A stretch of DNA of 23,606 nucleotides from a virus, in IMG/VR virus record IMGVR_UViG_3300031276_000015, positions 1 through 23,606 of that record; one strand, given 5' to 3'. The stretch's first letter is position 1, and every line of letters starts with the position of its first letter. The notes below the pieces were generated by a model. That model saw only the letters and a program-made list of their open reading frames with translations, made no database searches and was not told the DNA's origin. Below, one piece after another: positions 4,681 through 23,606 of the stretch. Made by a program: the position numbers and the translations under genes.

Positions 4681-5448
4681 TTATTCTTTTTCTTTTTTAA
4701 TGATTGCATCAAATCCATGTTTATTCAGAGCATTAATCAAATTATCTGCATTTTCTTTGTCTCTAAATGCGCCGGCTTGCACCTTATACAGATAACTATC
4801 TTTGTCGGGTTTTTTTATTGTAATACCATGTCTTTTAAGAATATAGGAAGATACAAAGAAAACAGCTTCATTAAAATATTTATTATTATAACATTTCTTT
4901 AAATCGCTTTCATTATCACCAAAAAACAATTCTATAATTTTAACTTTACAATTACTTGGAGTATCACGCATCATATAATAATAATCTCCGCGTGTTCCTT
5001 TCCTTTGAACTATACCCCTATTAGTCAAATTAAAAGTTTTACAATAATAATTTAAAAATTGACTCGACCATTTATAATCAATATCATTTTCTTTTTGAGT
5101 AATACTTAAAAGTATTTCGGATCCATTTGATTTTTTATCATATGCGTTGCAATGAAAACTATAAACTTGAAGGCTATCAACTTTTTTTGCATTATTTGAT
5201 AATAGTGTAGTTCTTGCAGATGGTATTACTGTCAAATCTGTTGTCCTAGTCTGTCCAATCTTCATATATTGACTACAAATAGCATAAACAGCACGCCCAA
5301 ACTTTAAATTATAATCTTTTTCCTTTGTTCCATTTATAAATGTACATCCGGGATCTGTTCCCCCGTGACCATAGTCAAACCAATCATAATCATCATTTGT
5401 CATATCTTTTTTAATTATGTTTAATCCTTGCACTTCATACCAATTCAT
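4681..5448 (-). CDS. N-acetylmuramoyl-L-alanine amidase endolysin with SPOR-like tail
   Basis: A 255-residue phage lysin that cuts the bond between muramic acid and L-alanine. The catalytic domain is Amidase_3-like: zinc ligand H28 in DYGHGGTDPGC, probable ligand E43, H99 in YSFHCNAYD followed by SGSE-like NGSE, and the catalytic glutamate E173 in KIIELFFGDNESD. There is no signal peptide, so export depends on the holin. The last 36 residues (YLYKVQAGAFRDKENADNL onward) look like the first half of a SPOR peptidoglycan-binding domain, which normally runs to about 70 residues. The ATG follows AAAGGAT and sits one codon after the previous stop. Confidence 0.93.
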   Translation of the reverse strand: MNWYEVQGLNIIKKDMTNDDYDWFDYGHGGTDPGCTFINGTKEKDYNLKFGRAVYAICSQYMKIGQTRTTDLTVIPSARTTLLSNNAKKVDSLQVYSFHCNAYDKKSNGSEILLSITQKENDIDYKWSSQFLNYYCKTFNLTNRGIVQRKGTRGDYYYMMRDTPSNCKVKIIELFFGDNESDLKKCYNNKYFNEAVFFVSSYILKRHGITIKKPDKDSYLYKVQAGAFRDKENADNLINALNKHGFDAIIKKEKE

Positions 5449-10576: not shown

Positions 10577-10600
10577 GTCATGTAACCCCCTTTTTATGCT

Positions 10601-10647
10601 ATTGTATCATAAAAGAGACTCTTTTCCCATTAAACGACACTAAACGA
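10601..10647 (-). promoter_or_regulatory. accessory-operon promoter with spacer dyad and tandem TCGTTTA
   Basis: Minus-strand TGATACAAT (10601-10609) is an extended -10 with no clear -35. Its spacer holds a perfect dyad AAAAGAG-A-CTCTTTT (10611-10625). Farther upstream TCGTTTA occurs twice with a 10-bp period (10641-10647 and 10631-10637). This places a repressor-type dyad against the -10 and activator-type direct repeats near -35 to -50. The operator differs from the ATAC-N6-GTAT type of the early promoters, suggesting a different regulator. Confidence 0.55.
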
Positions 10648-10687
10648 TTATTTTTCTTAAATTGAATTTGTTTTAGAATGGGGAAAT

Positions 10688-10714
10688 GGGATTGATATAA
10701 AATGTATCAATCCC
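10688..10714. repeat. 10-bp perfect inverted repeat
   Basis: GGGATTGATA (10688-10697) and TATCAATCCC (10705-10714) form a perfect stem with a seven-base loop. No T-run follows on either strand, so it is not a standard terminator. The GGGATT ends belong to the GGGAW repeat family found further up the control region. Confidence 0.8.
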
Positions 10715-10821
10715 ACCTATTAAATTGAAAAAACTTCTATTATTTAATTCCATAGGGTATATGTATAATTTGTATAATTTACTTAAATTAACTATTATTA
10801 CAAGTTCACATTTAATATAAC

Positions 10822-10853
10822 AAAAAAAGGAATAAAATGCAATCCCTTTTTTT
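10822..10853 (-). terminator. bidirectional intrinsic terminator
   Basis: A 12-bp stem with one mismatch: seven A-T pairs, two G-C pairs, an A-C mismatch and two more pairs, with an eight-base loop at 10834-10841. The arms themselves are A7 and T7, so a U-tract follows on both strands. It would end transcripts coming from the promoters at 11024-11170 before the accessory operon promoter. Confidence 0.7.
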
Positions 10854-10890
10854 ACGATTGTGTACTCTTTGGCTAGAACACTATATTAAA

Positions 10891-10927
10891 ATATGTTGAG
10901 TTACAATTATATTATAACTCAACATAT
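10891..10927. repeat. 13-bp perfect inverted repeat
   Basis: ATATGTTGAGTTA (10891-10903) pairs perfectly with TAACTCAACATAT (10915-10927) around an 11-base loop. No U-run follows, so it is more likely an RNA stem or a protein-binding dyad than a terminator. It sits within the candidate small RNA. Confidence 0.85.
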
Positions 10928-11023
10928 CCATTTTGACAAAAATAATTACCACTCATAGATAAAAACTATTCTATCACTTTTCAAACAAATTATATATCTA
11001 TTTAATCAAAATCTACAAGTCGA

Positions 11024-11053
11024 ATTTTATCATACAATTGTACTAATAAGCAA
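11024..11053 (-). promoter_or_regulatory. promoter of the candidate small RNA
   Basis: Minus-strand TTGCTT (11048-11053), an 18-base spacer and TAAAAT (11024-11029) preceded by TG. The spacer ends in GTATGA, as at the early promoters, and contains the palindrome TACAATTGTA (11033-11042). Confidence 0.45.
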
Positions 11054-11070
11054 CAAACTGTTTACATAGA

Positions 11071-11130
11071 CTATAATATAATAAATGCTGTTAATATTAA
11101 TTCAACCCATTTTTTTAATTTTTTCTCCAT
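11071..11130 (-). CDS. 19-aa hydrophobic micro-ORF in the control region
   Basis: The frame reads MEKKLKKWVELILTAFIIL and stops at TAG. A basic N-terminus is followed by one short hydrophobic helix. AAAGGA lies ten bases upstream, and an extended -10 promoter (11162-11170) would start a transcript about 25 bases before the ATG. It is the only plausible coding frame in the 1-kb control region. A truncated membrane protein, a leader peptide or a type I toxin-like peptide are all possible. Confidence 0.42.
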   Translation of the reverse strand: MEKKLKKWVELILTAFIIL

Positions 11131-11161
11131 TTTATATATTTCCTTTCCATTTTTTAACACA

Positions 11162-11170
11162 ATTATATCA
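11162..11170 (-). promoter_or_regulatory. extended -10 promoter upstream of the 19-aa ORF
   Basis: Minus-strand TGATATAAT is a perfect extended -10 (TG-n-TATAAT). No -35 resembling TTGACA is seen 16-18 bases upstream, which extended -10 promoters can tolerate. The predicted start near 11155 precedes the micro-ORF. Confidence 0.45.
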
Positions 11171-11241
11171 TTTTTAAAAAGGGAATAGAATTAGGGATTC
11201 ATTTTTTAGAGAAAATCCCTTGCCTTTTTCTGGAAAAGGGA

Positions 11242-11274
11242 AAAAGGGAATTAATACGGGATTAATTCCCTTTT
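11242..11274. repeat. 14-bp perfect inverted repeat in the origin region
   Basis: AAAAGGGAATTAAT (11242-11255) and ATTAATTCCCTTTT (11261-11274) pair without mismatch around a five-base loop ACGGG. The arms contain two copies of the GGGAW element facing each other. It could bind an initiator dimer or extrude as a cruciform, and its T4 end could also give weak termination. Confidence 0.85.
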
Positions 11275-11475
11275 AGTAAACAGTTATTATTATTAGGCTT
11301 GTAGAGAAAAGGGAAATTTGATTTTTTTTCATTCCCTGACATCAAATTCACTATTTATCTTTCTTTATAACTTTTTAGGGATTATATTATATATATATAT
11401 AAAGTTTTGAAAAAAATAAAAAATATCCTCCGAATATCCATATATTAGGATAAATATTTTCCATATGTTGTAAAT

Positions 11476-11484
11476 TGTGGATAA
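11476..11484 (-). other. DnaA box TTATCCACA
   Basis: The minus strand reads TTATCCACA, an exact match to the DnaA box consensus. An alternating TA run lies about 75 bases away at 11389-11400. This supports the origin call, though one nine-base match can arise by chance. Confidence 0.5.
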
Positions 11485-11579
11485 CTTTTTGTTTTTTTTT
11501 CCTATAAGAATTTTAACATCGAAAATCGATCCCTTTTTCCCTTTTTTTAAATTAAATCAACTTATAACTGGATTTTTGC

Positions 11580-11607
11580 AAAAAAAAACAGGGATTTTTT
11601 AATCCCT
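11580..11607 (-). terminator. intrinsic terminator of the primase-helicase gene
   Basis: On the minus strand AGGGATT-AAAA-AATCCCT forms a 7-bp stem (11590-11596 with 11601-11607), followed after one G by nine T residues (11580-11588). It begins about 38 bases after the stop of the primase-helicase gene. This is the clearest Rho-independent terminator in the window. Confidence 0.85.
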
Positions 11608-11644
11608 TTTCATGTTTTAAAAAAATCCCTTTCCCTTTTCATAT

Positions 11645-14314
11645 TTATAAAGCATCCCAAATTGTATTTTCATTACAACTTAATTGTTTGTATAATCTTT
11701 CTTTTAGTTCTGGATGTATTCCATGTATAAATTCTTGATAGCAATGTGCATTAATATGTATTGGCCAATAATAATTTTTACCATCCGATTTTTTTTGAAT
11801 TGCTATTCCATTGTTTTCTAAAGTTTCTCTAAACTCTGCAACTTTTGGCATATAATTATTATTATATGTTTTGCAAAATTCTTTAAAAATATTATGTAGT
11901 ATTGTTGTTTCTATACATTCATTTATTTTATCAGTGTCTAATTCTCTGCAAAATTGGCTAACAAAATTTAATGATATATTATTTTCATTTTTATATAAAT
12001 ATCTTTCTACTTCACATTCTTTGGGAATATCTAACTTTTTATTTTTGAATACATTTTTCAATTCTTCCATAATATCAATAATAATATAATCCAATTCATT
12101 TAATAAATCTTTGATTAAAGTAGGGTTTTGGTCCTCTTTTTTTATTACATTATTATGAGATAATATTACAAATCTGTTATAAATGTCTTTGTCAGCATCC
12201 AATGTAAATGTTGGTAGTTTATTTGTAACATTCCATAGAAGACCTTTATATTTGTAAGAAAATTCACCCTCAAATTTAAATTCTATATTAAAATTATCTC
12301 CACCTGTTATTTGTTTAAATGTTGCCAGTTCAGTCAATTTCATGAATTTCATATCAGAAGAGCCGGCAAGCCTCTTGTTTAAAATATTAGAACCCCCAAA
12401 TCTTTCTTCTAATTTTGATAGTTCTATTGATGTAAAATTCCCTTTGCCCAATATTTCTTCTGTTAATTTTTTTAATTTTGATTTACCGGTGTCATGTTTT
12501 CCCACTGTAAATATAGCATTTTTAAATATACTACAATCAATATTTGATATTGCTAGACCCATTATTTGTTTGTATACTTTCATAATGTTTTTATTTCCAT
12601 CACAAAAAGTGTTTAAAAAATTATTCCAAATAATTCCTTTACATTCTGTATTAATATCATAATTGCAATTTAATTGAATTGTACTCAATATTTTAGGCGA
12701 ATGTTTTTCTAGTTTCCATGTTTCTATATTAAATAAACCATTTTTAAAATTTATATATTTTTCAGGATTTAATTCATCAAAACTATAATAATATAAATCA
12801 TTGATAAGTAAATTAAATACTTCTGTTATAACTCCCATAGATTGTAATTCTAAAGGTATATATCTTTTTAAATATCCCTTAAATTCTTTTGTTGTTATTG
12901 CCTTGTAATGACCTTCATCATAATAAAAATATTTTTCTCCTCCGTATATATCATCTTTTGCAAAAATAAAAGGTGATTTAATTTGTAAATATTCTGCTAG
13001 TATAGGGCACAATATTTTTGTTTTTGTTTTCCCTGTTTTTTCATTAATATCTAAATTAATCCAATTCATTTCTTTTATATCTTCTATTAAAGCGCCTTGT
13101 TTTTTTACTTGGGAAAAATATTTCATTAAAATGTAATTAATTTTTGTTTTTGCTTCTAGTTTTTTATTAAAAATAATCCCTAAATTAAATATTTCATTAA
13201 TTTTTTTTGCAGCATCAAGCGGATTTTTTATATATTCCATTTCCATTACAAAATCTATTACAGATCCACCTTTTTTACAACTAAAACAATTCCATAAATT
13301 AATAAAAAAATTAGCACGAAAAGACGGATTACTTTCATTATGTTCCGGTAATGGACAATGTATATTTTTATTAGAAATTTTTATATTATAATATTCAAAT
13401 ATTTGTTCTAAGTTTACACTATATTTTATAAAATCAAAAACATTATCAAAATTATCATCCTCCGACTGCAATATATTTACATTATGAGAACTTGTTAAAT
13501 ATTTGTCGTCGATTCCTTTATTATCAATTTTTTTCTTTTCACATTTATTTTTAAATGCTTTAACATTCTTTACATAGTTATTAGGCTTTTTCATTGAATT
13601 TATAAGAGCTTTTAAAGTAAAATTTGCTTTGTCGATACATTTAGGATTTTTATTATTATAAATATCACCAGTTAAAATTATAGGTCTATTACTAAATATT
13701 TCAACCTTACATTTGTCAGGTATTAGAATTAATTCTTTGTGCATTTCATTAACTTTAATACTTAATTGTGTATTGTCCATCAATGATTTTATATCATCAT
13801 TATTTTTGTACAATATATGAATCCCTCTACCACTGACAGACTTTTCAATGTAACAATTATCTTTTTTAAAATAACTAATTATTAATTCAGCCCAATTATA
13901 TAATTGCCAGTTTTCACCATAAGCGTTGTCAATATCAATACAAATATATTCATTGTTTAAATGAAAAGAATGATATAATTGTAAAGGATTATTGTTGACA
14001 ACTTCATCAAACGACTTAAAGTTTTCTTTATCATTTGATGATAAAGAAACTCCATTAATATTACATGGATTTTTCCCTTTTTGTATGGTATACTGCTTAA
14101 AAGGGTTATTTTCATTTGTGAATAGTTTTACGTTTTTATACTTGGATGTTTCAATCTCTTCCTTGCTTGCTAATCGTTTAAAAGGTTTCATTGAATAAAA
14201 CCAAGTTTTTTTGTTTCTTAATTCACTTGGAATTATCTTAATGCTTTCTAGAAAACGATTTGCAACCGTAAAATCATATTTAGACTTGCCATCATCATAC
14301 AATTTACCTAACAT
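11645..14314 (-). CDS. phage replicative primase-helicase (PrimPol, CHC2 zinc finger, SF3 helicase)
   Basis: An 889-residue protein with three modules. An archaeo-eukaryotic-type primase/polymerase region has the metal-binding CIDIDN (125-130) and SGRGIHI (161-167). A CHC2-type zinc finger has C320, H325, C343 and C346 (CPLPEH, then CFSC). A D5-type superfamily 3 helicase has Walker A GKHDTGKS (605-612), a Walker B region near KRLAGSSDMKF (647-657) and the Asn-containing motif NVTNKLP (695-701). It would prime and unwind DNA at the phage origin. The start at 14314 follows GGGGAGGA by about seven bases. A frame extension to 14371 overlaps the HTH gene and lacks a ribosome binding site. It is probably cotranscribed with the HTH gene, and the candidate origin lies immediately downstream. 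Confidence 0.94.
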   Translation of the reverse strand: MLGKLYDDGKSKYDFTVANRFLESIKIIPSELRNKKTWFYSMKPFKRLASKEEIETSKYKNVKLFTNENNPFKQYTIQKGKNPCNINGVSLSSNDKENFKSFDEVVNNNPLQLYHSFHLNNEYICIDIDNAYGENWQLYNWAELIISYFKKDNCYIEKSVSGRGIHILYKNNDDIKSLMDNTQLSIKVNEMHKELILIPDKCKVEIFSNRPIILTGDIYNNKNPKCIDKANFTLKALINSMKKPNNYVKNVKAFKNKCEKKKIDNKGIDDKYLTSSHNVNILQSEDDNFDNVFDFIKYSVNLEQIFEYYNIKISNKNIHCPLPEHNESNPSFRANFFINLWNCFSCKKGGSVIDFVMEMEYIKNPLDAAKKINEIFNLGIIFNKKLEAKTKINYILMKYFSQVKKQGALIEDIKEMNWINLDINEKTGKTKTKILCPILAEYLQIKSPFIFAKDDIYGGEKYFYYDEGHYKAITTKEFKGYLKRYIPLELQSMGVITEVFNLLINDLYYYSFDELNPEKYINFKNGLFNIETWKLEKHSPKILSTIQLNCNYDINTECKGIIWNNFLNTFCDGNKNIMKVYKQIMGLAISNIDCSIFKNAIFTVGKHDTGKSKLKKLTEEILGKGNFTSIELSKLEERFGGSNILNKRLAGSSDMKFMKLTELATFKQITGGDNFNIEFKFEGEFSYKYKGLLWNVTNKLPTFTLDADKDIYNRFVILSHNNVIKKEDQNPTLIKDLLNELDYIIIDIMEELKNVFKNKKLDIPKECEVERYLYKNENNISLNFVSQFCRELDTDKINECIETTILHNIFKEFCKTYNNNYMPKVAEFRETLENNGIAIQKKSDGKNYYWPIHINAHCYQEFIHGIHPELKERLYKQLSCNENTIWDAL

Positions 14315-14336
14315 GCTTTTTCCTCCCCATTTGTTT

Positions 14337-14531
14337 TTATTCTTCAACAAATTCCTTAAAGATTTCTTCAAATTTCATGCCAGATACATTAATTAAATAT
14401 ATTATTTCTGGCAGTCTTAAGCCCTCTTTATTCATCAATCTTTGCCCTAATCGGTCCTTGTTACACCCCAAATCCATTGCCATGTCCTTTATTTGTAACC
14501 CATTTTCATATAATAAATGCTTTAAAATCAT
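14337..14531 (-). CDS. Cro/XRE-type helix-turn-helix regulator
   Basis: A 64-residue single-domain DNA-binding protein. The first helix (MILKHLLYENG) leads to LQIKDMAMDLGCNKDRLGQRL, a helix-turn-helix in the XRE style with alanine and glycine at the expected turn positions. It closes with EIIYLINVSGMKFEEIF as the last helices. Such small proteins act as dimeric Cro-like repressors. The ATG at 14531 lies nine bases after GGAGG; an earlier ATG at 14540 abuts that site. It has its own extended -10 promoter with degenerate copies of the early operators, so autoregulation and control of the early promoters is a reasonable hypothesis. Confidence 0.78.
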   Translation of the reverse strand: MILKHLLYENGLQIKDMAMDLGCNKDRLGQRLMNKEGLRLPEIIYLINVSGMKFEEIFKEFVEE

Positions 14532-14560
14532 TTCTATCATCCTCCAATTTTTTTCTTTTC

Positions 14561-14602
14561 ATTATATCATACAAAAAAATAAGTTACAAGACTAAAAAGT
14601 CT
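14561..14602 (-). promoter_or_regulatory. promoter of the HTH and primase genes with variant operators
   Basis: Minus-strand TTGTAA (14584-14589), 17 bases, then TATAAT (14561-14566) preceded by TG: a strong extended -10 promoter. Two sites lie where the early promoters carry operators: a half dyad ATACAAAAAAATAA at 14569-14582 (plus-strand reading) and the dyad AGAC-N6-GTCT at 14589-14602. Their centres are 20 bp apart. The GTATGA just before TATAAT is also the last codon and stop of the micro-ORF at 14567-14662. Confidence 0.65.
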
Positions 14603-18391: not shown

Positions 18392-18591
18392 TTTTCCAAC
18401 TCCTCCAATTCTCTAATAACATACTCTCTATTAATTAAATTGTTTTTATAGCTCTCAATCATTCCCGGCCTTATATCATCCCCATATAAAGCATGATATT
18501 GGGATAATATATAGTCAAACAATCTAATTGCAGCTTTTAACCGCCTTTTTTCATTTTTTACCCATAAACTTCTAACCGTTGACATTGACAT
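18388..18591 (-). CDS. 67-aa basic helical protein
   Basis: A basic helical protein: MSMSTVRSLWVKNEKRRLKA, then IRLFDYILSQYHALYGDDIR and a final helix NREYVIRELEELEK. It is probably a small nucleic-acid-associated protein. The ATG at 18591 lies ten bases after AAGGGA. A TTG start at 18600 is too close to that site. It overlaps the HIRAN gene in ATGA, and the codons for ELEELEK include GGAGGAG, the HIRAN gene ribosome binding site. No family is recognised. Confidence 0.68.
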   Translation of the reverse strand: MSMSTVRSLWVKNEKRRLKAAIRLFDYILSQYHALYGDDIRPGMIESYKNNLINREYVIRELEELEK

Positions 18592-18646: not shown

Positions 18647-18683
18647 ATTAATGATTTGGGGGGTTAACCCCCCATTCATTAAT
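18647..18683 (-). repeat. very strong GC hairpin after the zinc-ribbon gene
   Basis: TGGGGGG-TTAA-CCCCCCA (18657-18674) is a perfect inverted repeat, extended outside a small bulge by ATTAATGA (18647-18654) and TCATTAAT (18676-18683). In total about 15 base pairs. It overlaps the stop codon of the zinc-ribbon gene. No T-run follows, so it is not a standard terminator. In such AT-rich DNA a G6/C6 stem is exceptional. Confidence 0.9.
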
Positions 18684-18849
18684 TTACTTCTTCTGTCTCT
18701 GTCTTTGTCCAATCGCAAGAACTGCAATCATAATTGATTTTTATTCTTGTAACTGTTTTCCAACCTTTAGTTTTTATATCTTCCTTATAAGGTTTTCCCG
18801 GATTTTTATTGACTGATTTGCCACACTTAGGGCACTTCATATACCACAT
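18679..18849 (-). CDS. 56-aa zinc-ribbon protein
   Basis: A protein starting MWYMKCPKCGKSV, with a second knuckle CSSC near residues 42-45. Two CxxC pairs 32 residues apart make a classical zinc ribbon. The middle is basic (KNPGKPYKEDIKTKGWKTVTR), suggesting nucleic acid binding, and the tail is Thr/Glu-rich. The ATG lies seven bases after GAGGTG. It is the first gene after the operator-bearing promoter at 18876-18918, so it heads the HIRAN-helicase-RecU operon. Confidence 0.75.
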   Translation of the reverse strand: MWYMKCPKCGKSVNKNPGKPYKEDIKTKGWKTVTRIKINYDCSSCDWTKTETEEVN

Positions 18850-18875: not shown

Positions 18876-18918
18876 AGTATATCATACTTTTAAGTATGCC
18901 TCAATACTTTTAAGTATA
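18876..18918 (-). promoter_or_regulatory. early promoter with paired ATAC-N6-GTAT operators
   Basis: TTGAGG (18899-18904), 17 bases, TATACT (18876-18881) preceded by TG. Operator 1, ATAC-N6-GTAT, fills the spacer (18884-18897). Operator 2, with the identical 14-base plus-strand sequence ATACTTTTAAGTAT, lies at 18904-18917 against the -35. The centres are 20 bp apart, two helical turns. Both operators lie inside the coding end of the gene at 18882-19244. It drives the zinc-ribbon and recombination operon. Confidence 0.8.
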
Positions 18919-19244
18919 TCTCCAAGAATTTTATAATTTGTAATTTTCTTGATATACTCCTGTAATTTGTTTTGTCTAATAGTTATAATATCAGACAAAC
19001 ATTGGTTTATATGTTTGTCTCTTATATATTCATTTTTTTGAGAATATATGTAATCATTTGGACCCATTCCATGACATTCTCTCGTTCCTATTGCCTGTAA
19101 ATAATGTGAGGCATTAACCTTTTTATATCTACTATCATCCATTAAGATTATTAATGTTTTTGTAATTCTTTTAATTTTATTAATATGTATAGTTGAATAA
19201 GTATAATTATTACACTCTACATACACAATATCACCTGTTTTCAT
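18882..19244 (-). CDS. hypothetical protein with small beta-barrel start, 120 aa
   Basis: The protein opens MKTGDIVYVECNNYTYSTIH, then KIKRITKTLIILMDDSRYKKV, a strand pattern like a KOW/SH3-type small barrel that often binds nucleic acid. The middle has CHGMGPNDYIYSQKNEYI and the C-terminal third is helical (QNKLQEYIKKITNYKIL). The last codons are constrained because they include the operators of the next promoter. The ATG follows GGAGG by eight bases. No family is recognised. Confidence 0.7.
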   Translation of the reverse strand: MKTGDIVYVECNNYTYSTIHINKIKRITKTLIILMDDSRYKKVNASHYLQAIGTRECHGMGPNDYIYSQKNEYIRDKHINQCLSDIITIRQNKLQEYIKKITNYKILGDILKSIEAYLKV

Positions 19245-19247
19245 TCT

Positions 19248-19460
19248 TTATTCCTCCTCTATTTCTATTTCTACATAATCATTCTTTTCATCAAAGAACT
19301 TAATACTATCATTTGGCCTAAAATCTATGTTTTCCTCTTTTATTAACATTGTTGTGGCTGTATAAATGTAACCTAGTTTTTCGACCGCTTTTTCTTTATT
19401 ATTTGTTGTTGTATGGCAATATACAAAATTACCATTTACATATTCATTTATTTTAATCAT
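19248..19460 (-). CDS. 70-aa hypothetical protein
   Basis: A small acidic protein starting MIKINEYVNGNFVYCHTTTN, with a helix KEKAVEKLGYIYTATTMLI and a final acidic strand (DYVEIEIEEE). The GAGGAGG in the terminal Glu codons is the ribosome binding site of the next gene. The ATG follows AAAGGGAGA by about eight bases. It lies just after the 30-bp palindrome at the end of the Rad52-like gene. No family is recognised. Confidence 0.7.
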   Translation of the reverse strand: MIKINEYVNGNFVYCHTTTNNKEKAVEKLGYIYTATTMLIKEENIDFRPNDSIKFFDEKNDYVEIEIEEE

Positions 19461-19477
19461 TTTATTCTCCCTTTCTG

Positions 19478-19507
19478 CTTATTTGCTACTAATTAGTAGC
19501 AAATAAG
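19478..19507. repeat. 30-bp perfect palindrome at the Rad52-like gene end
   Basis: CTTATTTGCTACTAA (19478-19492) is exactly complementary to 19493-19507, with no spacer. It covers the last codons and stop of the Rad52-like gene and the gap to the next gene. No T-run follows. It could be an mRNA stem protecting the upstream message, or a DNA-binding site for a symmetric protein. Confidence 0.9.
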
Positions 19508-20466
19508 GCTTTTACATCTTCATCAACTGGTTTTGGTTCTAATTCTTCCTTATCTGGAAGTTTCTTTAATTTTTCAATTATATAGTTTACATGTTTCTTT
19601 GTCATATAGGCAATAGATTTTAATTGCCATTTCTTGACAAACCATTCTAACTCATCAGTATTTCTACCTTTTTTATCTAATAAAACTAATATTTTTTTGT
19701 GATCTTTTGTGCTAATCATGGTATCAATATAATTCATCAAACATTTAAAACCCTCTATTCTCAATTCTTTTTTACTATTAACTTTAAATTTATCTTTAAT
19801 AATTTTTTTTATTTCTTCATCATTTAAAAGTATATTTCTTGTTTTGGCATATATACATTTTATATGCTTGTCTTCAATGATTGGATTAGTATCTTCTATA
19901 ATAACTTTATTTCCTTTGCTATTAACTGACTGATAACTATTATTGCTAGGTTTCTTTTCACTAGGTTTCTTTGTTATTTGTGTTGATGGTAAGGCCCAAT
20001 AGTAAACCGTACCATCTCTTAATTTTGCATATTCTGTGTAATAATCATCCTTTTTAGTGCTAGTTTTCACAAACTTATAGTCTTCATCATATAGATATCT
20101 ACCTATACCAAAACCGCTTGATGCTGCTCTTTTAAATGAAGCACTCGCGCCGCCTTTTAGTTCTTCAAAGTCTGTCAAGTCTGCAACATCAGACTTGACA
20201 ATTTTTTTACCTTCAAAATTAACTATTATTTTACTGATAAAGCCGCTTTTTTGTTTTCCTTTGTTGTCAATGTAGTCAACCGGGATAACTTCATTATCCC
20301 AATTGTCCCACCCGAACACTTCATCGAGTCTATTTTGTACTAATCTTGCATCTATGTATTTACAAACCTTTGCCCAAATGCCATTATTATTTTTACCGGC
20401 CTCAATGATTCTCCACTTTTCATCTTTTGGATCAAAAGGTTTTGTTAATTGTTCTCTTATATTCAT
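19489..20466 (-). CDS. Rad52-family single-strand annealing protein
   Basis: A 325-residue recombinase that anneals complementary single strands. The first 135 residues carry the Rad52/Sak signature: RLDEVFGWDNW (46-56), a beta hairpin around IVNFEGKKIVKSDVADLTDF, and KGGASASFKRAASSGFGIGR (104-123) with YLY after it, the conserved DNA-binding helix. The remaining half is helical (NDEEIKKIIKDKFKV, then a closing charged region) and may bind partners. The ATG at 20466 is eight bases after AAGGAGG. An upstream ATG at 20472 is too close. It follows the operator-controlled promoter at 20825. Confidence 0.93.
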   Translation of the reverse strand: MNIREQLTKPFDPKDEKWRIIEAGKNNNGIWAKVCKYIDARLVQNRLDEVFGWDNWDNEVIPVDYIDNKGKQKSGFISKIIVNFEGKKIVKSDVADLTDFEELKGGASASFKRAASSGFGIGRYLYDEDYKFVKTSTKKDDYYTEYAKLRDGTVYYWALPSTQITKKPSEKKPSNNSYQSVNSKGNKVIIEDTNPIIEDKHIKCIYAKTRNILLNDEEIKKIIKDKFKVNSKKELRIEGFKCLMNYIDTMISTKDHKKILVLLDKKGRNTDELEWFVKKWQLKSIAYMTKKHVNYIIEKLKKLPDKEELEPKPVDEDVKALFATN

Positions 20467-20480
20467 TCTCATTTCCTCCT

Positions 20481-20774
20481 TTAAAATGGTAGACTTTCAT
20501 TTAATATACTTTCTTCAATAGCTCTACATTTAGAAATAAATCTATCTCTGTAATTTAATTCTTCTTTCGATCTTGAATACTCATCCTTGTAAAACTCTTC
20601 ATTTACATCAATTTTTAAATATTCTTTTAAGTATTTTTTTGTTGTCCTCACAAACTTGTAATTTGTCATAGTTCCATGACATTCTTGATTAAAATAAACT
20701 TCACCCCTATTATAAACTTTAATTATCCATACCTTCCAATTATCCCACTTGTCATTAATTCTAATAGTTTTCAT
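20481..20774 (-). CDS. hypothetical protein with SSB-like C-terminal tip, 97 aa
   Basis: A basic, aromatic protein starting MKTIRINDKWDNWKVWIIKV, with YFNQECHGTMTNYKFV and a helical second half (TTKKYLKEYLKI, then ELNYRDRFISKCRAIEES). It ends ILNESLPF, similar to the SSB tip D-D-x-I-P-F. That suggests docking to SSB-binding partners, with the single-strand annealing protein encoded next. No domain is recognised. The ATG at 20774 follows AAAGGGGG by eight bases; a TTG two codons earlier is less likely. It is the first gene of the early operon. Confidence 0.68.
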   Translation of the reverse strand: MKTIRINDKWDNWKVWIIKVYNRGEVYFNQECHGTMTNYKFVRTTKKYLKEYLKIDVNEEFYKDEYSRSKEELNYRDRFISKCRAIEESILNESLPF

Positions 20775-20824
20775 TTTCAAATCCCCCTTTTATTTTTGCC
20801 TTGCCTCAACTTATATATATATAT

Positions 20825-20867
20825 ATAATATCATACAAAAAAGTATAATGCAATACTTTTTTGTATG
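20825..20867 (-). promoter_or_regulatory. first early promoter with paired ATAC-N6-GTAT operators
   Basis: TTGCAT (20848-20853), 17 bases, TATTAT (20825-20830) preceded by TG. Operator 1 is ATAC-AAAAAA-GTAT (20833-20846) in the spacer, and operator 2 is ATAC-TTTTTT-GTAT (20853-20866). Together they form a 15-bp perfect inverted repeat (20832-20846 with 20853-20867). Centres are 20 bp apart and the gap to the -10 is two bases, exactly as at 18876-18918. Confidence 0.82.
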
Positions 20868-20897: not shown

Positions 20898-21893
20898 TTA
20901 CACTTGAATTAACATGATATAGTAATCAGTACCATTAATACAAATTCTAAATTTATGACTAAATTGTGTTTCGTCTGTATCGGCTGTTACTGCTTCCTCT
21001 GTTAATATTCCTAGTGTTACATTTGCATCATCAGTACAATAAAGATCAATTTGATTTGAAGTTACATTGGTTGGAGTTGTAAGGTTTTTTAATGATATGC
21101 ACCCCTGAGCAAATCCGGCTACAACTTGAGGAGAAGTAGCACCACCAATTAATAAATTTCTTTCTTGGTCAAATCTAGCAGTGACCAATAAGTTTGCATC
21201 TGCATCCGCCGACAAATCATCACCAGTTAAAATATACACATTACCACCTGATAATTTTATCTGTGATGTATAACCATCATATATTACTTCCCATCTATCA
21301 GAAGTATCATCATAATATAAATTATCACTAATAAATAAATAACTTGGATAAGTAGCAGTTTTACTAAAAGCTATACTTCCATTTCCTCCAAGTTGCATGT
21401 AATTATAAGTGTCTTTCCAGTCTTTTTTTACTCCTGTTCCAATCATTAAATTGTAAGTTGTATTTATGCTATCTGTCGCATAAGTCCAATAACTACTCGT
21501 GTTTGGATTTAAATAACATCTTTTATCTGTAATTGTAGACATTGCACCGGATGCAGTGATAACAGTATAAAGTGGAATTGATCCCGGAGTAAATCCAGTT
21601 GTATTTTTTGAAACTGTTCCGGATGTGTTTACTTCAATATAGTTAGTGCTGTTATCTGTTAATGCTATACTGGATCCTGACACATTTGTCGTTGAAGTTC
21701 CATTTTGAACTCTACCATTTCTATAATAAAAAGTTAATGCGGTATGACTTGCCGCATCTTGGGCGAAATTATTGCTAAATACTGCGCCATCTATTAGCCA
21801 ACATAATGTATTTAATTCATTTCCCCAAACATTAAAGCTATTTGCAACTGTTGGTAACCCTAACAACATATTAGTTGTATAAGAAACTGACAT
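20898..21893 (-). CDS. tail-fibre-like protein, 331 aa
   Basis: A protein rich in Thr, Ser, Asn, Gly and Tyr with a repetitive beta-strand pattern and few charges, typical of phage tail fibres or receptor-binding proteins. The N-terminus MSVSYTTNMLLGLPTVANSF, then WGNELNTLCWLIDG, resembles the base-attachment region of fibre proteins (W-G-x-x-x-N). The distal part has CISLKNLTTPTNVTSNQIDL, then a final YYIMLIQV strand. It is the last of the tail genes and would bind the host surface. The ATG lies seven bases after AAAGGAGG. No lectin or lyase motif is seen. Confidence 0.72.
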   Translation of the reverse strand: MSVSYTTNMLLGLPTVANSFNVWGNELNTLCWLIDGAVFSNNFAQDAASHTALTFYYRNGRVQNGTSTTNVSGSSIALTDNSTNYIEVNTSGTVSKNTTGFTPGSIPLYTVITASGAMSTITDKRCYLNPNTSSYWTYATDSINTTYNLMIGTGVKKDWKDTYNYMQLGGNGSIAFSKTATYPSYLFISDNLYYDDTSDRWEVIYDGYTSQIKLSGGNVYILTGDDLSADADANLLVTARFDQERNLLIGGATSPQVVAGFAQGCISLKNLTTPTNVTSNQIDLYCTDDANVTLGILTEEAVTADTDETQFSHKFRICINGTDYYIMLIQV

Positions 21894-21907: not shown

Positions 21908-22393
21908 TTACCCAAAATTTTCTATTCTTTGTACATATATTGCTTCATCTGCCGAAAGTATTGTGCTCCATAATCTACGACTAACTAATAATCCGGTATC
22001 TTTGCCAGCACCGGCACCCCATACAGCCGCAAGAGATCCGGCAAATATACCAATTTCATTTATAGCCCCTGTATAATCAACACCTGATAGAATAAATTCT
22101 GTTGTTACTTCTCCGGTACCTGTTACGTTTTGATCTGTTTTACTAGTTCTAAATACTTCGGTTTGTAATGTTGTATCATCGGATTTCTCCGGATCTGTTC
22201 CGGTACCTATTGCAAATTCTAATACTTCTATGTCCGGTACGCCTCCATAAAAAGGTTTAACTATTTCATTAAGCGCAATATCAGTCAATGTATTATAAAT
22301 AATTTTTTTTTCTATTACCTTTAATGTTTTAGTATTTACTTTTTTCAAAAGGTAAATACCTTTATGCTTATAAAAATCTTTATATCTCATCAT
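21908..22393 (-). CDS. small baseplate or tail protein, 161 aa
   Basis: A mostly beta protein with a basic start (MMRYKDFYKHKGIYLLKKVN), then FAIGTGTDPEKSDDTTLQTE, VTTEFILSGVDYTGAINEIG and a final WSTILSADEAIYVQRIENFG. The GTGTxPxxxxDTxL...E...GxINEIGIF pattern is common in Firmicute phage proteins found between the tail hub and fibre. The ATG at 22393 or the next codon follows AAGGGGTG. Its junction with the upstream gene is identical over 16 bases to one at 9179. Confidence 0.66.
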   Translation of the reverse strand: MMRYKDFYKHKGIYLLKKVNTKTLKVIEKKIIYNTLTDIALNEIVKPFYGGVPDIEVLEFAIGTGTDPEKSDDTTLQTEVFRTSKTDQNVTGTGEVTTEFILSGVDYTGAINEIGIFAGSLAAVWGAGAGKDTGLLVSRRLWSTILSADEAIYVQRIENFG

Positions 22394-22401
22394 TTCACCC
22401 C

Positions 22402-23606
22402 TTAATCATATAGAGTATTTGTTAATATAGTTGTTCCCGGTGATAATGTTAAACTTGGTGCTAGTGTAGCAAGAGGGACGAGTAATTCACATTGTTGTAA
22501 ATTATACGTTCCTTGCCAATTATATTCGTCTTTATATTCATAATAGTAAACAATTGAATCATCGCTTAAAATGTCTGTTTTTTGTGTTAAAAGTGATTTA
22601 AAATAATCTTCCCAATTACCCACAAATTCACCAGATAATAATTTAATTTCATATGTTATATGTTCGGCTGTTTGATGTTTTCCTCTTATGCTTTCTATTA
22701 AGTACCAGTCATCAATATCAAATAATGGTTTCTCTATCTTTATTAATTTATTTATATCAATATCTCCCAAATCATCCTCTATAGTAAGCATAATATAATT
22801 TTGATCGGAGTATTTTTCTATTAATCCTTTGGCATAATCAACAGCCGCTAAATTTGAATTAATATCTTTGTTTTGGAATACTTCTTCATATATTCCGCTA
22901 TTCCCTTCTATTCCGGCACGTTCTGCAATTTTAGTAACATCTTGATATTTAATTCTAACATCAGTTAACCCATAAAAACTTACCCTTATTTGGTCGGCTG
23001 TTGGGTTAAGATCAGTCAATGGTGTTTCTCCGTCATCATGTACAAGTTGTTTACTCCCATAATTCCAATAAAATTGTTTACCTGTGTCAATTCCGTTTAT
23101 GCCTACGGTTTGAGTTGCCCAACCGGCACCATTTACGTTAATTTCAATAACTGGTTCTTTGGCAATTCCAAATTTAACAGTATAAGTCATTGATTCGCCG
23201 TCTGGTTTTGGGCTTGGTGTATAATTTGTTTGATATAAAGTTTCTTTTAACCCACCATCTATATATTGTACATTTCTATATTCATTTAAAGTATTAAATG
23301 GTTTAAATCCTTTATGTTGAAATGTGTTGTCAATAACTGTTGTACACTTGTTTGTAGCTTTTATATAAAAATTTAGTTTTTTATCAAAATCAATGTTCCA
23401 ATTATAACCCGGTGCCGCTAACTGTAATTTATTTAATGCTTCTTCACAACTACAATAATTAAATGTTACTATATCAAATGTTGGCCCGTCTTGAATAGTT
23501 CCATAACTCACACCTAGCTCATTAATATAATTATCAATAATGCTTTTAACTATATATCCGGCTGTTTTATTTGTATAGGATCTTCCTATTTTTCTTCTAG
23601 TTGCTA
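22402..23606 (-). CDS. tail/baseplate protein, N-terminus outside the window
   Basis: At least 401 codons are open to the window edge at 23606, and no start is forced inside. The first visible residues, RSYTNKTAGYIVKSIIDNY, followed by CSCEEALNKLQLAAPGYNWN, match the central part of long-tail baseplate hub proteins, where N-K-T-A-G-x-I-V-x-x-I-I-x-x-Y and a later FDxxxxLxFY segment are typical. The C-terminal half is beta-rich (LIKIEKPLFDIDDWYLIESI). A GTG at 23511 is possible but unlikely as the real start. The gene is followed by the small baseplate gene after a TTAAGGGG junction. Confidence 0.8.
   Translation of the reverse strand, partial: ATRRKIGRSYTNKTAGYIVKSIIDNYINELGVSYGTIQDGPTFDIVTFNYCSCEEALNKLQLAAPGYNWNIDFDKKLNFYIKATNKCTTVIDNTFQHKGFKPFNTLNEYRNVQYIDGGLKETLYQTNYTPSPKPDGESMTYTVKFGIAKEPVIEINVNGAGWATQTVGINGIDTGKQFYWNYGSKQLVHDDGETPLTDLNPTADQIRVSFYGLTDVRIKYQDVTKIAERAGIEGNSGIYEEVFQNKDINSNLAAVDYAKGLIEKYSDQNYIMLTIEDDLGDIDINKLIKIEKPLFDIDDWYLIESIRGKHQTAEHITYEIKLLSGEFVGNWEDYFKSLLTQKTDILSDDSIVYYYEYKDEYNWQGTYNLQQCELLVPLATLAPSLTLSPGTTILTNTLYD

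Follow-up and report, generated by a model that had tools for sequence, protein, structure and literature searches.

Three promoters on the minus strand of this phage fragment share one layout, in which two symmetric dyads are set around the -35 element and in the 17-bp spacer, and the third of them lies directly before the gene for a small helix-turn-helix (HTH) protein. The computed results are the sites themselves, their promoter geometry, a third copy in front of the HTH gene, and an association of the same architecture with XRE genes in other phages. The best explanation is that a dimeric Cro/CI-type (XRE) repressor uses the dyads as its operators, the most likely binder being the HTH protein, a reading to which we assign a probability of about 0.6.

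The window, meaning the whole stretch analysed, is a 23,606-base virus record (IMGVR_UViG_3300031276_000015; GC 27%) and apparently a fragment. Essentially all of its recognised genes lie on the minus strand. Tail-like genes come first in transcription order and are followed by a 99-aa ORF, a Rad52/Erf-like annealing protein, small ORFs, a HIRAN-domain protein, a DEAD/ResIII helicase, a RecU-like protein, a MazE/AbrB-like protein, the HTH protein and a P4-family primase; the primase is followed by a geneless stretch of about 1 kb, by small genes, by holin-like and amidase genes, and then by terminase subunits and a Rha-type regulator. The geneless stretch (10577-11644) holds scattered ATCCCTTTTT/GGGAAAAGG repeats and inverted repeats and is possibly an origin or regulatory region, and the base composition of the plus strand is strongly asymmetric (T 42%, A 31%, C 17%, G 10%). 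Searches of IMG/VR returned no relatives of the primase, helicase or annealing protein, and the terminase profile matched nothing in genome contigs. The terminase search of IMG/VR returned two distant contigs and L003, the only close relative (terminase 67%, Rha 76%). Past Rha, the gene order of L003 continues into portal-type and head genes, so the missing part of the window phage looks structural. The features used below are as follows.

22402-23604, 21908-22393 and 20898-21893, minus strand: tail-like genes, first in transcription order
20825-20866, minus strand: promoter P1, TTGCAT-17-TATTAT with extended -10, start expected at about 20818; far dyad 20853-20866 (abuts the -35), near dyad 20833-20846 (fills the spacer)
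20481-20780, minus strand: 99-aa ORF, first gene behind P1, no family match
19489-20472, minus strand: Rad52/Erf-like single-strand annealing protein, second gene behind P1 (Rad52_Rad22, E 3e-14)
18876-18917, minus strand: promoter P2, TTGAGG-17-TATACT with extended -10, start expected at about 18869; far dyad 18904-18917, near dyad 18884-18897
18679-18849, minus strand: 56-aa ORF, first gene behind P2
16046-17590, minus strand: DEAD/ResIII helicase, downstream of P2
14655-14819, minus strand: 54-aa MazE/AbrB-like protein, just upstream of P3, alternative DNA-binding candidate (MazE_antitoxin, E 0.00035, below cut-off)
14561-14602, minus strand: promoter P3, TTGTAA-17-TATAAT with extended -10 GTATGATAT, geometry as at P1 and P2, directly upstream of the HTH gene
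14337-14540, minus strand: small HTH protein of 64-67 aa, candidate repressor; the ATG at 14531 fits the GGAGG better than that at 14540
11645-14371, minus strand: P4-family primase/helicase, downstream of P3, overlapping the end of the HTH gene
5102-5115, no strand given: lone perfect dyad within the amidase gene, with the sequence of the P2 dyads (ATACTTAAAAGTAT); its surroundings show no recognised promoter

P1 reads ATACAAAAAAGTAT-TGCATT-ATACTTTTTTGTAT-GA-TATTAT and P2 reads ATACTTAAAAGTAT-TGAGGC-ATACTTAAAAGTAT-GA-TATACT, giving a common order of dyad, TTG, dyad, GA and TATNNT with a spacer of 17 bp. The exact ATAC-N6-GTAT dyads lie 20 bp apart, centre to centre, in both pairs; the near dyad occupies 14 of the 17 spacer bases and stops two bases short of the -10, the last T of the far dyad is also part of the -35, and the TG of the extended -10 lies within GTATGATAT. 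At P2, both dyads fall within the last 12 codons of ORF 18882-19244, whose stop TGA supplies the TG of the extended -10. The preliminary description had claimed just this: two promoters of identical paired-operator architecture, with a near dyad two bases from the -10, a far dyad at the -35, an extended -10 at both and one pair inside a coding end, and each point was reproduced. The two identical 14-mers of P2 are read in different frames (ATA CTT AAA AGT AT and A TAC TTA AAA GTA T), which rules out a protein repeat as their cause. All three promoters are followed, 20-40 nt downstream, by a gene start that has a ribosome site.

Coincidence in an AT-rich genome is exceedingly unlikely as the source of these pairs. 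The GC content of 27% would favour it, and one-mismatch dyads show no large excess (23 against 16). Against this, exact ATAC-N6-GTAT occurs in the window four times in two pairs and once alone, where 0.47 copies are expected; pairs separated by 14-40 bp appeared in none of 1500 dinucleotide shuffles of the window; and of all 256 four-base half-sites with a six-base centre, only ATAC forms close pairs in the window. Other phages, described below, show independent recurrence with the same promoter spacing. Chance is thus refuted for the P1 and P2 pairs, and a score like that of P3 arises by chance in about 1 of 400 shuffles. The search for further pairs that the preliminary description had proposed found, within this 23.6-kb record, no other ATAC-N6-GTAT pair and only the lone copy at 5102-5115, possibly a chance occurrence. 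The P1/P2 pattern was not found in the other viral contigs scanned. Paired symmetric, operator-like dyads overlap a sigma-70 promoter, as expected of a Cro/CI-type paired operator-promoter with its two or more operators of about 14-17 bp, and the feature is real and, by indirect tests, very likely functional.

Together, the P1 dyads form a perfect inverted repeat of 15 bp, which might instead be mainly an RNA hairpin or terminator ending the tail operon, its promoter resemblance being secondary. P1 does fold into a 15-bp stem (z -6.2), and the perfect repeat lies behind the stop of the 331-aa ORF at 20898. Yet the fold is absent at P2 (z -1.5) and P3 (z -0.3), the coding strand has no clean T run after the stem, and the geometry relative to the -35 and -10 is identical at all three promoters. 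An intrinsic terminator would have a GC-rich stem and a T run, common to the sites; the stem here is AT-rich and found at P1 only. We rejected an RNA hairpin for the three sites as a set, since P1 alone folds, and consider this reading very improbable.

The third promoter is the new element in this phage's promoter-operator design. The preliminary description had counted two early operons; the count was incomplete, having missed P3. We used the 24 positions common to P1 and P2 as a template for a promoter scan of the window, in which P1 and P2 score 24 of 24, P3 scores 20, and the next places score 19 (the P1 pair on the opposite strand) and 17; a score of 20 was reached in just 1 of 400 shuffles. 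P3 reads AGACTTTTTAGTCT-TGTAAC-TTATTTTTTTGTAT-GA-TATAAT. Its far dyad, AGACTTTTTAGTCT at 14589-14602, is a variant (AGAC-N6-GTCT) changed symmetrically from T to G, so that ATAC becomes AGAC and GTAT becomes GTCT, and its near dyad, TTATTTTTTTGTAT, is degraded to TTAT-N6-GTAT with one good half left. On the minus strand, the string GTATGATAT has three copies, one each at P1, P2 and P3. A scan independent of ATAC, accepting any 4+4 dyad with an N6 centre that abuts TTG-17-TATNNT, returned only these three promoters (0.38 expected). The HTH gene start at 14531 has a GGAGG site 9 bases ahead and an expected transcription start near 14554, about 23 bases ahead. Given its altered dyads, P3 could belong to another regulator.

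The region around the annealing gene has further structure of its own. Strong hairpins at 19478-19507, 20173-20200 and 18993-19020 are terminator-like on the plus (non-coding) strand, where the region holds seven terminator-like sites compared with 0.6 in shuffles. The plus strand also has a TTGACA-17-CATAAT match at 18585, from which an antisense RNA could arise. Inside the 120-aa ORF, at 18988-19025, an inverted repeat AGACAAACAT...ATGTTTGTCT lies directly before an extended -10 (TGATATTAT); it has the AGAC/GTCT ends of the P3 far dyad at a different spacing.

To place this layout among other phages, we scanned IMG/VR for AT-centred dyad pairs with a variable gap (42 stretches) and, in a second scan, for dyad-TG-N(2-6)-dyad-N(0-4)-TATNNT (22 viral stretches and 11 in genome contigs). 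The spacer is exactly 17 in 36 of 48 matches and 16 or 18 in nearly all others, with 13-21 allowed by the pattern; three matches have a spacer of 20, two of them second readings of 17-bp sites. The near dyad shifts, with gaps of 4, 5, 6, 7 and 8 bases (10 in L010), while the promoter elements stay put, and dyad centres are 18-24 bp apart, a range of more than half a helical turn. One contig, L009, which is related to the L032 group, has the exact geometry of the window including the 20-bp spacing. The ATAC-N6-GTAT pair on a promoter with a 17-bp spacer is a recurrent design in unrelated phages.

Small HipB-like XRE proteins are encoded beside the promoters in L009, in L032 with its near-copies, and in L041, L059, L060 and L069; the genes beside the L061 promoter are CI-like and Cro-like; and XRE genes stand beside the promoters of L062/L065, L066/L071 and L070 (with a peptidase S24 domain), while at L067 the XRE gene is divergent. 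This pattern does not hold for L063 and L068, and in the L032 group the XRE gene is more distant from the second promoter. An XRE gene lies within 600 bp in most phage lineages with the architecture, compared with 1 of 47 dyad pairs without the promoter geometry, a contrast somewhat inflated by an XRE profile seeded from some of these loci; Pfam independently confirms most of the XRE proteins submitted to it, and the one such pair with an XRE neighbour, L010, itself shows the architecture at gap 10. Most genome-contig matches have no XRE gene near and were left out as support, except L055, a Lachnospiraceae contig with an XRE gene near its dyad promoter. In L061, the ATAC-pair promoter drives a Cro gene and, downstream, a Rad52-like protein 41% identical to that of the window, with a CI-like gene divergent to this promoter. 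Together, the shuffle statistics and the XRE neighbours in unrelated phages give good support to the earlier proposal that the window pairs are selected repressor sites on early promoters. Literature searches for a named ATAC or GATAC operator yielded nothing usable.

Denser arrays of the same dyad also occur. In L032 (and in L011, L018, L020, L027 and L042), six ATAC-N6-GTAT dyads cluster at 11023-11137, at a distance from the XRE gene, and three of the six follow one another at 15-bp intervals; the 14-kb L032 stretch holds 16 dyads in all. In L022, an AT-rich viral contig, four dyads of the ATACAATTTTGTAT type lie 29-30 bp apart at 2194-2296 in an iteron-like arrangement.

Within the window, the HTH protein is the leading candidate for the repressor acting on the dyads, since DNA binding is predicted for it, its gene belongs to the same gene block and P3 stands before that gene. 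The preliminary description had named it as a binder to test; P3 strengthens that choice, while a weak family score and a recognition helix without the usual Gln weaken it. Its scores are Pfam HTH_26 E 0.027 (below cut-off) and PHROG transcriptional regulator E 0.0025, its model has five helices at low confidence, and PDB sequence and fold searches gave nothing significant. Neither it nor the MazE-like protein matched phage records. The HTH protein did not align with the L032-type small XRE proteins, leaving homology to them unsupported; an apparent match was rejected as circular, the profile having included the window protein. Gln28 of the 434 repressor contacts the first A of its half-site. 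Most of the other phages' proteins carry Gln at that position, whereas the recognition helix of the HTH protein, CNKDRLGQRL, carries Lys.

One somewhat doubtful alternative places the gene of the Cro/CI-type repressor beyond the window and gives the HTH at 14337 another role; the binder would then be a lysogeny repressor from the missing phage part, or a protein of a resident prophage or of the host. The record is an incomplete 23.6-kb virus fragment, CI-like genes adjoin the operators in L061, L066 and L070, and the HTH recognition helix lacks the usual Gln, all of which would suit it; a CI protein beyond the window, as also suggested earlier, is possible, and there is no lysogeny module in the usual place within it. 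It is made less likely by the tail genes, which lead straight into P1 and the early operon, a junction without any integrase or divergent repressor, and by L003, whose continuation into portal-type genes suggests that the missing part is structural; moreover, P3 links the HTH gene to the same promoter design. The MazE/AbrB-like protein is an improbable binder. It has a predicted DNA-binding fold and adjoins P3, and MazE/AbrB relatives act as dimers on palindromes, but its family score is below cut-off, the paired ATAC dyads of other phages adjoin XRE genes, and no AbrB-like gene was seen among the neighbouring ORFs that were read there.

With the HTH protein as repressor, we infer repression, affinity order and timing as follows. 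A dimer on the far dyad would cover the edge of the -35 and one on the near dyad the spacer up to the extended -10; with both bound, the promoter would be occluded and RNA polymerase could not bind. Transcription from P1 would serve the operon of the annealing protein, that from P2 the block of genes which follows (helicase, RecU-like protein and others), and that from P3, where the sites are weaker, the HTH gene together with the primase. Made early, the HTH protein would silence P1 and P2 before its own promoter, the degraded P3 operators letting it accumulate before self-shutoff, and the outcome would be a self-limiting early pulse. The preliminary description had suggested a cooperative dimer-of-dimers repressor, but the exact 20-bp spacing at P1, P2 and P3 need not mean direct dimer-dimer contact. 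Spacing in other phages, set by the promoter elements, runs from 18 to 24 bp, so exactly 20 bp is no general requirement, and this spread speaks against cooperative binding that would demand exactly 20 bp. Across 49 bases, P1 and P2 share 71% identity, so their common spacing could reflect duplication of one promoter. More tentatively, this phage may lack a lysogeny repressor and rely on a single Cro-like protein of about 64 aa, autoregulated by weakened operators, to time its three early promoters, of which one fits almost entirely within the final codons of a gene.

These results provide a concrete proposed regulon, three promoters and one candidate repressor, for a phage with almost no database relatives, and the ATAC-N6-GTAT pair on a 17-bp-spacer promoter, as a recurrent mark of Cro/CI-type control in unrelated phages, can serve to locate regulators and early operons in viral contigs that lack annotation.

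Lambdoid phages carry paired operators on their early promoters, and those of 434 are 14 bp long with the form ACAA-N6-TTGT. The window resembles 434 in its 14-bp dyads with conserved 4-bp ends and a variable, AT-rich 6-bp centre, and in having two dyads per early promoter that overlap the -35 and spacer. It differs in its half-site, ATAC, in repeating the operators on three same-strand promoters, and in having no divergent cI/cro pair or three-operator switch; the lambda-type arrangement of divergent cI and cro with operators between them was not found, there being no divergent gene at P1, P2 or P3. In Staphylococcus phage phi11, CI and Cro use three homologous 15-bp operators near or overlapping promoters, and the repressor dislodges RNA polymerase (PMC3991615); unlike in the window, the operators lie in one cI-cro intergenic region and the genes are divergent (PMC3991615). 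L061, a 59-kb IMG/VR contig, shares with the window the ATAC-N6-GTAT pair, a promoter with a 17-bp spacer and a Rad52-like annealing gene, but its CI-like gene is divergent, a third dyad stands apart at 808 and the centres of the pair are separated by 21 bp. L032, L041, L059, L060 and L069 differ in their HipB-like proteins of 79-91 aa, not alignable to the window HTH, in spacings of 18 and 22 bp, and in a serine recombinase that adjoins in most; like the window, they have a small XRE gene directly behind an ATAC-pair promoter, and in several members a second operon of the phage bears an additional pair.
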